In this document: piece after piece, positions 55,749-64,000 of the stretch
Layout of the letters: each line of letters begins with the position of its first letter
Position numbering within the stretch: position 1 is the stretch's first letter
NCBI RefSeq assembly: GCF_022879595.1
Contig: NZ_CP084267.1
Coordinates: 620,001-684,000 of the forward strand
Direction of reading: 5' to 3'
DNA length: 64,000 bases
From: Caballeronia sp. Lep1P3
GTDB lineage: Bacteria; Pseudomonadota; Gammaproteobacteria; Burkholderiales; Burkholderiaceae
The notes under the pieces: generated by a model
The model's input: only the letters and a program-made list of their open reading frames with translations
Told to the model about the DNA's origin: nothing
Databases searched by the model: none
Program-made: the position numbers and the translations under genes

Positions 55749-55786
55749 CCGACGGACGCAGTCGCGCATTCATGTTCGGGCGGGTG

Positions 55787-56022
<236 letters not shown>

Positions 56023-56167
56023 GCCGAACACCCGGCATCCCGCCTCTATTCCCTCGCTTCACAAAAATATTCTCCCCACCGGGCGCGGAACAAATCCGCC
56101 GCGCCCGTTGTTTTCGTAGCGAACGCAGCAGCAATCAACGCCTGCCGCGCATCCAACGGAGACAGTC

Positions 56168-59728: not shown

Positions 59729-61087
59729 ATGACCGAACCGTCCTTGACCACGCTCGGCAAGTACCGCATCGGCGAGACGCTCGGCGCGGGCGCGATGGGC
59801 ATCGTCTATCGCGCGTTCGATCCGCATATCGCGCGGCACGTCGCCATCAAGACGGTGCGGCGCGAACTGCTGGAAAACGGCGAACGCGCGAGTCTCATCG
59901 CGCGTTTTCGGAACGAGGCGCAGGCTGCGGGACGGCTCGCGCATCCGAATATCGTCGGCGTGTACGACTACGGCGAAACCGACGACACCGCGTATATCGT
60001 GATGGAACTCGTGAGCGGGCGCAGCCTCAAAAGCGTGCTCGAAGGCGGCCGCATTCCGGACCTCGCCGCCGCGCTCGAGTGGTTCGCGCAGTTGCTCGCG
60101 GCGCTCGGCTTCGCGCACGAACGCGGCGTGATTCATCGCGACGTGAAGCCGGCCAACTTGCTGATCGACGCCGATGGCCGGCTCAAGGTGACGGACTTCG
60201 GCATTGCGCATGTGGAATCGTCGGCGCTCACGATGGTCGGCGCAATGATCGGCACGCCCGGTTATATGTCGCCGGAGCAGTTTTCAGGCGACGCCGTCGA
60301 TGCGCGCTCCGATCTCTTCTCGGCGGCGGTCGTCCTCTATCAGATGTTGGCGGGACAGCGCGCGTTCGCGGGCGCGTCGCAGGCCGCGGTGATGCAGCAG
60401 GTCATGCACGAGACGCCGCGCGCGCCGTCGGCGTGCAATCCCGCGTTGCCGCCCGCGTTCGATGCGGTGCTGATGCGCGCGCTCGGCAAGGCGCGCGCGT
60501 CGCGCTTTCCGAACGCAGCCGCATTCGGCGATGCGATTCGCGAAGCGGCAGGCGCGGCAGGCACGGCATCGGGCCGCGACGACGACCGCACCGTGCTTGA
60601 AGCGCGTGCTTCGAATCTCGCGCCTTCGTCGCATGGCTCGCTGCCTTCGCTGAGCGCGTGGCCGGACAACACGCTCGGGCAAATCGAAGCGTGTCTTGCC
60701 GCGCAGATCGGCCCGGTCGCCCGCCTGCTCGTCGCGCGGTGCGCGCAGCGCGCGACGGATATCGGCGCGCTAATCGCGTTGATCGCGCCGAGCATTCCGT
60801 CGGAGAAAGGCCGGGCGCAGTTCATCGCGGCGTTTCGAAACGACGCCTCTCTCACCGGTCCGCTCGCGAGCCACTCCCCGCCGGACGCTCGCACTTCGCT
60901 CGCAGCGGACGAAGTGCACGCGGCGGCGCGCAAGCTCGCCGTCTATCTCGGGCCGATCGCGGGCATCATCGCGAAGCGGGAAGCCCCACGCGCCGCGAGC
61001 ATCGGCGCGCTGCACGAAAGACTCGCGGCGGCGATCTCCGATACACGGGACCGCGAGCGCTTCGCGCGCGACGTCGGCCTGCGCTGA
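59729..61087 (+). CDS. Serine/threonine protein kinase of the T6SS locus
   Basis: 452 residues. Kinase domain (about 12-270): Gly loop GAGAMGIVY (19-27), Lys41 in VAIK, HRDVKPAN with catalytic Asp138, DFG at 156 and MSPEQ. The C-terminal 170 residues are helical with no TM visible, unlike membrane-bound PpkA. In T6SS loci such kinases phosphorylate Fha and trigger assembly; the paired phosphatase reverses it. The stop overlaps the region upstream of the pppA-type gene. Upstream neighbours supply a possible heme-based input. Confidence 0.92.
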   Translation: MTEPSLTTLGKYRIGETLGAGAMGIVYRAFDPHIARHVAIKTVRRELLENGERASLIARFRNEAQAAGRLAHPNIVGVYDYGETDDTAYIVMELVSGRSLKSVLEGGRIPDLAAALEWFAQLLAALGFAHERGVIHRDVKPANLLIDADGRLKVTDFGIAHVESSALTMVGAMIGTPGYMSPEQFSGDAVDARSDLFSAAVVLYQMLAGQRAFAGASQAAVMQQVMHETPRAPSACNPALPPAFDAVLMRALGKARASRFPNAAAFGDAIREAAGAAGTASGRDDDRTVLEARASNLAPSSHGSLPSLSAWPDNTLGQIEACLAAQIGPVARLLVARCAQRATDIGALIALIAPSIPSEKGRAQFIAAFRNDASLTGPLASHSPPDARTSLAADEVHAAARKLAVYLGPIAGIIAKREAPRAASIGALHERLAAAISDTRDRERFARDVGLR

Positions 61088-61128
61088 TGACCCCTCACTC
61101 GCACCGCGCCGACGATGGAGACCGCCGC

Positions 61129-61965
61129 ATGAACCGCCATCCTTCGCACGCGTGCGCGCCCGTTCGTCTCGATAGCTGCGTCGCATCCGGCGCGACCGAT
61201 GCGGGGCGCGTGCGGCGGGAGAATCAGGATCGCTTCGTGTTCGATCCGCGCGCGAAGGTCATCGCGGTGGCAGACGGCATGGGCGGCCACGCGTTCGGCG
61301 CACGCGCTGCGGCACTCGCGCTGGAACGCATCGCGGCATCGCTGACGCGCGCGGTGGATGCGCTGCGGCCATCGTCCCTCGATGCCACGCTCGCCGACGA
61401 CCCCGACGCGACCGTGTTCGACGCATCGCTCAATGCGGCCCGCGTGCTCACGAACGCGCTCGACGACGCCAACGCGACGCTTTACGCGCTCAATCGTGGC
61501 GAACGCATCGACGCGCACCGGTCGATGGGAACGACCGTCACCGGCATCTGGCTGCCGCCCGGCTTGGGCGTGCTCTTTGCGTTTCATGTCGGCGACAGCC
61601 GCCTGTACCGTCTGCGCGACGGCGCACTCACGCAACTCACGCGCGATCAAACGCTCTTCCAGCATGCGCTGGAGACGGGCGACGTCGAACACTTGCCGCC
61701 GCGCAACGTCCTGTTGCAGGCGCTCGGTCCGGAGCCGTCGATTGCGCCGGAGGTCGCGGCGCATGCGTGGCGGCCCGGCGACCGTTACCTTCTGTGCAGC
61801 GACGGGCTTCACGGCGAAGTGCCGCATCACGAGATCGAGCGCACGCTCGCGCAGATGTCGTCGCGTGATCTGGATGCGGCTTGCGGGCGGCTTATCGAGC
61901 TTGCATGCGAAGCGGGCGGCAAGGACAACGTGACGGCGGTGATCGTGTGCTTCGAGGGGCGGTGA
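61129..61965 (+). CDS. pppA: PP2C-family phosphatase PppA
   Basis: 278 residues, metal-dependent Ser/Thr phosphatase. Motifs: GRVRRENQDRFVFD, VADGMGGHAFG (metal Asp), HVGDSRLYRL, LCSDGLHGEV and GGKDNVTAVIV (late metal Asp-Asn). It should dephosphorylate the T6SS kinase target. ATG 61129 is chosen for its GGAG site; an ATG at 61087 overlapping the kinase stop would add 14 residues. The last 100 bases of the gene are repeated several times in decayed form downstream. Confidence 0.9.
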   Translation: MNRHPSHACAPVRLDSCVASGATDAGRVRRENQDRFVFDPRAKVIAVADGMGGHAFGARAAALALERIAASLTRAVDALRPSSLDATLADDPDATVFDASLNAARVLTNALDDANATLYALNRGERIDAHRSMGTTVTGIWLPPGLGVLFAFHVGDSRLYRLRDGALTQLTRDQTLFQHALETGDVEHLPPRNVLLQALGPEPSIAPEVAAHAWRPGDRYLLCSDGLHGEVPHHEIERTLAQMSSRDLDAACGRLIELACEAGGKDNVTAVIVCFEGR

Positions 61966-62470
61966 AGAGGGCCGTTGCCCTGCTTCTATTGAAGATGCCG
62001 GATGCGGCTTGACGGCGTCTATGACAACGTAACGGCGGTATTCGCCTGCGTCGAGCCGCGTTGAGAAAGACGGTCGCCACGCTCCTATCGAACATGCCGA
62101 CGCGCGATGCGGATGTGGATTACCGGCGTCTGATCGAGCTTGCTTGCGAGGTGAGCGACAAGAACAACGCGACGGCGGTGACCGCATGCTTCGAGGCGCG
62201 TTCAGAAGGACCGTTGCCCTGCTTCTGTCGAATAGGCCGCCACGCGAGGCCGATTTGGCTTACCGGCATCTAATCGATCCTGTTTGCGAAAGCGGGCGGT
62301 AAGGACAACGTGACGGCGGTGATCGTGTGCTTCGCGGGGCGCTGAGAACGACCGTCGCGACGCGACGCGACGCGGATGCAGCATGCCGGCGTCTGATCGA
62401 GCAAGCATGCGAAGCGGGCGGCAAACGCAACGGCACGGCGCTGACCGCGTGCTTCGAGGGACGCTACGGC
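61966..62470 (+). repeat. Four decaying copies of the 3' end of pppA
   Basis: Downstream of the pppA stop, four blocks resemble its last 100 bases. The anchor (gacggcggt and its variants) recurs at 62031, 62171, 62312 and 62434, at offsets of 99, 140, 141 and 122. Each block partly encodes the phosphatase tail: RRLIELACEVSDKNNATAV, GGKDNVTAVIVCFAGR and RRLIEQACEAGGKRNGTAL. A common spacer (CCGTTGCCCTGCTTCT) recurs between some blocks. Frames are shifted or carry stops, so the copies are not one protein. They fill the whole gap to the convergent tagF stop. Confidence 0.88.
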
Positions 62471-62472
62471 AC

Positions 62473-63141
62473 TTACACGACGCGTCCATCGAACAACGCC
62501 GCGACGAAGGCGGCATCCGGCAGGCCGGCTGTCACGCGCACCGATTCTTCCGTCCACCATGCGGACATGCCGCGCACGCACGCCGCACAAGTCATGCTCG
62601 GCGGCGCATCGGCGGTGGCGGCGGGCGTGTCGGGCGCGTCGGCAAGGGCAATCAACGCGGCATCGAAATCGGCGAGACGCGCGCCCGGCATCAACGTCGA
62701 AAGCGCGAGCTCACGGCAACGCGCGAACCAGCCGGCGCAGGAATCGACGCAGAATTCGGCGCGGAAATCGGCGCCAGATTCGACGCAAGGTCCGACGCGG
62801 AAATCGACGCGCGAACCACCGCAAGAACCCACACAAACCCCACCCCCAACCGGCGCCACAATCGTCAGCGGAAAATAACGCCCCGCCGCATCGACGCTCG
62901 GCATCAGCACGCCCGCCCACGCCCCGCTCCCGATCACATCGCCGGCGAGCGCAAAGCACCAAACCGGCGCCGTCAGATAAGCATCGAGCCACGCGGACCC
63001 CAGCGCGTCGCGGCTCGCGACGAGTCCCGCCTGCAGCATCGCGTCCCACGGCACGACGAAGGACGCCGGAAGACGCCGCGTCACGAAATCGCCGTTGCTG
63101 CGCAGCTTGCCGAAGCATCCGGCCGCGCCAGGCGCGCGCAT
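62473..63141 (-). CDS. tagF: T6SS-associated protein TagF
   Basis: 222 residues of the TagF family, a negative post-translational regulator of T6SS. GCFGKLRSNGDFVTRRLP, VPWDAMLQAG and MPSVDAAGRYFPLTIVAP are conserved. The middle (about residues 98-140) has a Cys-rich low-complexity insertion (GGGVCVGSCGG, DFRVGPCVESGADFRAEFC) not expected in the family. The ATG at 63141 overlaps the tssM stop by one base; GTG at 63144 is alternative. The stop abuts the last pppA-like repeat. Confidence 0.85.
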   Translation of the reverse strand: MRAPGAAGCFGKLRSNGDFVTRRLPASFVVPWDAMLQAGLVASRDALGSAWLDAYLTAPVWCFALAGDVIGSGAWAGVLMPSVDAAGRYFPLTIVAPVGGGVCVGSCGGSRVDFRVGPCVESGADFRAEFCVDSCAGWFARCRELALSTLMPGARLADFDAALIALADAPDTPAATADAPPSMTCAACVRGMSAWWTEESVRVTAGLPDAAFVAALFDGRVV

Positions 63142-64000
63142 CACGGCAGGTCCGGGCAGCGGAACTGTTCGAGCGGCGCGCGCCGGAACGGATTCACGAC
63201 GCTATTCGCGTCCACTTCCAGCACCGCCTTGCGCCCCGCCGATTGCAGCGTCAGCGTGTAGCGGTCCGGCTCGCGCGTGGCGTCGAGCTTGCCCGCGTCG
63301 AGCAGATGCAGGAGCGCCCACGGGCCGCTCGCCTCGAACGATGCTCCCCCCGCCGGCGCGTCGAACTGCGCGCTCGCGCGGCCCGTGTTCTTGCCGCCCG
63401 GCCATTGCAGCGGCATCGACTGGGCGCCATCCTGCGCCACGGCGAACTGCTGCCCGTCGATTTCGAAATTCACGCGCGCGACGGCGGGATCGAGCGCGAG
63501 CGCCTTCACGCGAAAGCGAATGGCCATGGCGCGGCTGCCGTCGCCGAAGAACGCGTCGCGAATCTGCGCGGCGCGCTGGAACTGTGCGAGCGCATCGCGC
63601 GGCACGCCCGCCGGCGACGCGCCCGCGCGCCATTGCCACACGGGCTTCGTCGTATCGACGAGCGCGGCGAGGTTCTTCTGAAAGAAATCGTCAATGAGGC
63701 CGCCCGGCGCAAAAAGCCGCGCGAAGTCGTCGGCTGCGGCATCGCGCGCCGATGCGCGCACGAGCGGATAGCGGCCATCGAGCGCCTTGTGGCACAGCGG
63801 CCCGACGCTCGCGTTCCACTGCGCGGCAAGACGCGCGCGCTCCCCGCCTTCGACGAGCGACGCGCCCGCCGCCGCCACCGACGCCGCCACCGGCGTGAGC
63901 GGCGCGGCGCCGGTCTGACCCGCGAGCCGCAGCCTCGTCAACGCATCGCCCGCGGGCGCGGGCTGCCCGAGGCGGCGCGCGGCGTCGGCGGCGTCGAGAT
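63141..64000 (-). CDS. tssM: T6SS membrane protein TssM (C-terminal part, cut by window edge)
   Basis: TssM (IcmF) forms the membrane complex of the T6SS, with its large C-terminal part in the periplasm. About 286 C-terminal residues lie in the window. GRYPLVRASARDAAADDFAR, FAPGGLIDDFFQ, QFQRAAQIRDAFF and NPFRRAPLEQFRCPDL are typical of its end. The frame is open to the right edge; no start lies in the window. tagF follows directly with overlapping stop and start. Confidence 0.9.
   Translation of the reverse strand, partial: LDAADAARRLGQPAPAGDALTRLRLAGQTGAAPLTPVAASVAAAGASLVEGGERARLAAQWNASVGPLCHKALDGRYPLVRASARDAAADDFARLFAPGGLIDDFFQKNLAALVDTTKPVWQWRAGASPAGVPRDALAQFQRAAQIRDAFFGDGSRAMAIRFRVKALALDPAVARVNFEIDGQQFAVAQDGAQSMPLQWPGGKNTGRASAQFDAPAGGASFEASGPWALLHLLDAGKLDATREPDRYTLTLQSAGRKAVLEVDANSVVNPFRRAPLEQFRCPDLP

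Follow-up and report, generated by a model that had tools for sequence, protein, structure and literature searches.

The window, a stretch of 64,000 nt from Caballeronia sp. Lep1P3, harbors the gene pppA for a PP2C-type phosphatase at positions 61087–61965 of the plus strand (PF13672, E 4.5e-14) and the gene tagF at positions 62473–63144 of the minus strand (PF09867, E 3.8e-37). Both genes are whole, with full open reading frames that include their Pfam domains, and they are oriented convergently, tail to tail, with a gap of 507 bases between them. A kinase gene (59729–61087, plus strand, PF00069) precedes pppA, and a gene with an IcmF_C domain (TssM-type) is located beyond tagF. TagF and PppA are described as acting post-translationally on the T6SS, and in Agrobacterium they form one fused protein according to the same source (PMC5995506), in contrast to the two convergent genes of the window. 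Two further repeats were seen nearby. In the interior of tagF, a 12-base unit is present seven times in register (62721–62828) and results in a repeated DFR...C stretch in the protein. At 55784–56024, an array of simple short repeats lies between called genes, with hits at periods 108, 162, and 180.

Within the gap between pppA and tagF, the terminal part of pppA, roughly its last 65–115 bases, occurs in four decayed copies in tandem, all on the plus strand and arranged head to tail in the order tail, then spacer. The 3' end of pppA itself (tail 0, about 61855–61965 from alignments) is followed by a spacer (61966–61999) that aligns with the spacers after copies 1 and 2. Copy 1 (62000–62065), which carries an internal deletion of about 40 bases, was recognized by repeats, by alignment with 0 of 1000 shuffles as high, and by a profile match (E 1.4e-6); the spacer behind it (62066–62093) was assigned by alignment. 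Copy 2 (62094–62205) is supported by repeats, alignment scores, and the profile (E 2.1e-17), and the spacer behind it (62206–62235) is the only one with fair similarity to the tagF ends of relatives. Copy 3 (62236–62346; alignments, profile E 3.1e-17) is followed by a short stretch (62347–62357; alignment) and by copy 4 (62358–62467; alignments, profile E 4.6e-15), which adjoins tagF. The recurring spacer mentioned in an earlier note on this DNA is thus evident in the alignment after the first three tails, and a remnant of it is left after copy 3.

The same note had described blocks resembling the end of pppA at spacings of 99, 140, 141, and 122 bases. A repeat search returned identical values, with starts of the core motif at 61923, 62022, 62162, 62303, and 62425. 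A 90-base repeat family comprised four members, the gene and three copies, with 66%–82% identity, and self-blastn of the pppA-tagF stretch gave E values from 6e-45 to 1e-9. The pppA tail reached a local score of 111 against the gap, while none of 1000 dinucleotide shuffles scored as high (maximum 37) and 42 was the highest score among 900 real pieces of 507 bases taken from this genome. The similarity is far above chance. Each of the four copies also singly exceeded all 1000 of its own shuffles, the weakest being copy 1 (42 versus a maximum of 29). All four copies were matched, at 18–53 bits (E 1.4e-6 to 2.1e-17), by a profile built from the pppA ends of 20 relatives, and the same profile reached at most 4.4 bits on 200 shuffles of the gap. 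The blocks are therefore real, scoring far above shuffles and above other pieces of the genome. An assembly artefact is very unlikely, as the five tails, including that of the gene, are only 56%–79% identical pairwise and comparable arrays are also present in relatives from separate records. A genome search with the array gave one match only, and other copies of the tail were found solely beside pppA. In a plasmid collection, one record matched, over about 80 bases of the pppA tail.

We compared the junction between the two genes in relatives. The search returned 69 loci, of which 22 close ones (L032–L052 and L073; 60%–78% identity) were examined, and tagF was located in 21 of these. In 15 of the 21 relatives, pppA and tagF adjoin without a gap, their stop codons overlapping by 4 bases, so that the unduplicated state is present among relatives. 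The junction shows an overlap of 13 bases in L046, a gap of 64 bases in L050, and an insert of 1286 bases in L039, and gaps of 229, 504, and 932 bases are found in the array-bearing relatives L041, L032, and L033, respectively. In the window, copy 4 ends in CTAC at 62464–62467, at the place of the 4-base stop overlap in most relatives, and the CTA corresponds to a TAG in frame with tagF, three codons past the present tagF stop. Since copy 4 ends at the overlap site with an in-frame tagF stop codon, its end looks like the old pppA/tagF junction. No second strain of the species was found; the nearest other protein among the matches listed was 79% identical.

Some of the relatives showed other rearrangements at or near this site. 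The junction insert of C. catudaia (L039:3817–5102) harbors two ORFs, one with an Aspzincin_M35 peptidase domain (PF14521, E 9.3e-12) and one that matches no Pfam family. C. arvi carries a recent tandem duplication (L042:4294–4639; 97.7% identical, period 173) that spans the end of tssM and the start of tagF. In Paraburkholderia translucens (L048:3976–6827), no tagF was found beside pppA, which is followed instead by a tandemly repeated stretch of about 1.4 kb (period 1454).

We also compared the spacers of the window with tagF. Only the spacer after copy 2 has fair similarity to the tagF ends of relatives: 1 of 500 and 4 of 500 shuffles scored as high against the tagF ends of L032 and L033, and 0 of 200 did so in a further shuffle test. 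For the spacers after tail 0 and copy 1, 74 and 148 of 200 shuffles were as high, and the spacer after copy 3 was not above shuffles against tagF ends. The end of the window's own tagF matched the gap at chance level (43 of 300 shuffles as high), a profile of tagF ends found no tagF end in the window gap, and the tagF match in a lenient joint alignment on the window was at chance level as well. The idea that all spacers of the window are stubs of tagF was tested in three ways and applies at most to the one behind copy 2. The comparisons lend weak support to a window unit with tagF sequence, a point against the explanation that follows.

We consider it very likely that the gap arose by tandem duplication at the convergent pppA/tagF junction and subsequent neutral decay. 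In the ancestor, the stop codons of the two convergent genes would have overlapped. The duplicated stretch would have started within the terminal part of pppA and ended at the junction or slightly beyond it, and amplification would have raised the number of tandem units, each about 140 bases long, to five, with an intact pppA ahead of the array and an intact tagF behind it. Because the duplication would leave the flanking genes whole, the units between them would be unconstrained and would accumulate substitutions, deletions, and frameshifts, while recombination between units may still occur occasionally. We infer the direction of events, a tagF stop within the unit, neutrality, and slippage or short-homology recombination as the mechanism of duplication. 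Repeated partial duplication followed by decay, as had been suggested before, is supported by the repeats, the alignments, the shuffle scores, the profile matches, and the divergence of the copies. The stop overlap of most relatives, the weaker third-position bias of the copies, the arrays that three relatives carry at this junction, further arrays over gene 3' ends elsewhere in this genome, and the lack of an RNA family or of unusual folding also speak for the explanation.

Tandem repeats are also present in the junction gaps of Burkholderia sp. 8Y (L032), Caballeronia sp. GAFFF1 (L033), and C. glebae (L041), that is in 3 of the 21 relatives. Unlike the array of the window, they are built mainly from the tagF end. 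In profile searches, the gap of 8Y showed two ends of tagF plus two short ones of pppA (the second pppA end with E 0.026 only), that of GAFFF1 four tagF ends (the fourth marginal, 9.8 bits versus 8.2 in the best shuffle), and that of C. glebae two tagF ends. In 8Y, the true tagF end is immediately adjoined by a piece of the pppA end (E 2.2e-7), as is expected if the duplicated unit spans the junction. The tagF ends of 8Y formed one group in a tree (support 87/88), while those of GAFFF1 did not in the best tree, although one group was not rejected (p 0.47). The tagF parts end 274 and 293 bases into tagF in 8Y and 319, 277, 234, and 277 bases into tagF in GAFFF1 by lenient alignment, and strict blastn also gave differing joint ends for the two strains. 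A joint common to both is suggestive only.

The window unit is rich in pppA sequence and about 140 bases long, whereas the units of 8Y and GAFFF1 are rich in tagF sequence with periods of about 231–268 bases. Because make-up and period differ, we infer that the array of the window, the arrays of 8Y and GAFFF1, and the array of C. glebae had separate origins, which suggests more than one event. Alternatively, the window, 8Y, and GAFFF1 could have inherited a single duplication that predates their split and was later reshaped in each of them. These three are mutually nearest in pppA (77%–78% protein identity) and all carry junction arrays, and the tails of the window form one group with a support of only 52/51. 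Besides the differences in unit and period, however, all five tails of the window end in an Arg codon, while 8Y and GAFFF1 have Gly (Arg is also found in C. catudaia), and C. glebae, not a member of this group, likewise carries its own array. We therefore regard a single ancestral array as possible but doubtful.

It is considerably less likely that the array was selected as a spacer or terminator that separates the two convergent transcripts. The recurrence of arrays at this junction in 3 of 21 relatives and two terminator-like sites in the array, versus 0.6 expected, would fit such a role. On the other hand, most relatives (15 of 21) lack a gap altogether, the copies show divergence and internal gaps, the array had no match to an RNA family in Rfam up to E 1, and its folding energy was like that of shuffles (15 of 100 as low). 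No promoter-like sites were found in the array, and the two terminator-like sites leave some room for a role in termination. No function of the copies is shown by anything found here.

The copies carry the substitutions, frame shifts, and stops that had been noted before, and in addition an internal gap and lost stop codons. The gap, of about 40 bases, is the one in copy 1. Copy 3 has a one-base insertion and, ahead of it, a TAA in the pppA frame, both in its first half. In copies 2 and 4, the pppA frame remains open and the pppA stop is gone, so that reading would run past the old stop if one of them were joined in frame to pppA. The copied part was said to code for the Asp-Asn pair of the phosphatase, the Asp of which we take to be metal-binding as in PP2C enzymes. 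This applies to copies 1 and 3, in which the pair is kept, but not to copies 2 and 4, in which the Asp is lost. At the first, second, and third codon positions, 13, 36, and 35 differences were counted among copies 2, 3, and 4 (n = 84; copy 1 was left out, and the pairs are not independent), compared to 40, 72, and 162 (n = 274) among seven functional orthologs. The share of third positions was weaker in the copies (35/84 versus 162/274), and these counts may point to weak coding constraint on the copies. First-position differences among the copies are unusually few (13/84), which counts against duplication with neutral decay.

Of the 23 differences between pppA and copy 3, 19 were concentrated in the first half, leaving 4 for the other half, which is nearly identical to pppA (6 pairs were compared; both shuffle tests gave p 0.0006). 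Such a patch indicates that recombination between the gene and the copy probably occurred locally. Because the coding sequence of the patch is intact, the exchange may have gone from the gene to the copy, the opposite direction to that of an archive being read. Tail 0 and copy 4 share an identical run of 20 bases (p 0.04, uncorrected). The earlier note had proposed that recombination could regenerate alternative C-termini of pppA from an archive of tails; exchange with the gene is indeed probable, but the archive itself is unsupported. That silent partial copies recombine into pppA like cassettes is extremely unlikely: the near-identical patch, the 20-base run, and the open frames of copies 2 and 4 would be in line with it, but the third-position bias is below that of functional orthologs, the Asp and the pppA stop are each absent from 2 of the 4 copies, all copies are decayed versions of one sequence and not diverse, intact alternative tails, and the arrays of relatives consist mostly of the end of the other gene, tagF.

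We estimated how common arrays like the one at the pppA/tagF junction are. The tandem survey covered 2,459,395 of the 6,178,487 bases of the same genome, with genes called by a simple script. The filter left 25 tandem clusters: 12 were contained in genes, 9 fell between genes, and 4 reached across a gene end, which was the 3' end each time. One of these four (L216) is presumably in a transposase gene, as judged from a motif. When 1699 genes were scored (the gene of L178, lying at the edge of a stretch, was left out), a score of at least 50 was reached by 4 tails against the downstream sequence and by 2 heads against the upstream sequence; with these numbers, this direct test did not establish a 3' bias of arrays. 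The tail of pppA ranked second. Among relatives, the pppA tail scored at least 50 solely in the window (1 of 23 loci) and the tagF tail in 3 of 22. Each of two comparison genes reached this score in 1 of 30 loci, the L211 gene in L283 of strain 8Y and the L178 gene in L304 of the own genome. The recurrence of arrays at the pppA/tagF junction thus appears moderate and not unique. In our judgement, the array of the window is best read as the result of ordinary mutational processes and decay at a junction where arrays recur moderately.

Several other arrays were noted in the survey. L178:987–1363 (G000 C3:80987–81363) has three tandem units whose sequence includes the final 80 or so bases of a gene with a thioesterase domain, and among 30 loci of this gene only its own one scored at least 50. 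L211:8245–8632 (G000 C2:288245–288632) has four units of about 100 bases that include some 30 bases of the 3' end of the gene and contain a GC-rich inverted repeat, terminator-like by eye. Arrays of this gene are present in the own genome, where they are short, and in 8Y, where the array of the homologue L283 covers the end of the gene. Intergenic tandem arrays without overlap to called genes were seen at L161:16475–16843 (about 124 bases), L217:18423–18629 (50–100 bases), and L230:16926–17229 (108 bases). At L154:6076–6481 (G000 C3:690076–690481), the repeats lie within a long open frame located downstream of the window and have periods in multiples of 9 bases.

Among the matches listed, no title or abstract start dealt with bacterial arrays of gene 3' ends, but partly similar systems are described. 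Confirmed spontaneous tandem duplications in Salmonella had short direct repeats at their endpoints (PMC3411829). Like the array of the window, they are local direct duplications; as described there, they were detected in growing cultures and are mostly much larger, whereas the unit of the window has about 140 bases and is amplified, old, and decayed. The tandem arrays reported for Burkholderia, a related GC-rich genus, are also mostly located between genes, but are mostly made of 4–10 units with motifs of 6–9 bases (PMC1853098) and not of about 140 bases from the end of a gene. Orphan cdiA-CT and rhs-CT modules are partial 3' copies downstream of a full-length gene as well, and exchange of them was seen between strains (PMC3150448). 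According to this source, they comprise diverse toxin ends with immunity genes, some of them shown to be functional, in contrast to the copies in the window, which are one decaying sequence from a phosphatase gene.

As a speculation that we consider unlikely to hold in this general form, stop/stop overlaps may be sites at which short tandem duplications preferentially survive, because duplication across such an overlap harms neither gene. Arrays would then recur there, part the convergent genes, exchange with the live gene end, and admit new genes, for which the two-ORF insert at the pppA/tagF junction of C. catudaia would be an instance. Decayed copies of a gene tail, like those described here, should not be read as a functional archive. 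The window provides a clear case of how tandem duplication can open a gap between overlapping convergent genes, with the likely pre-duplication state kept in relatives.
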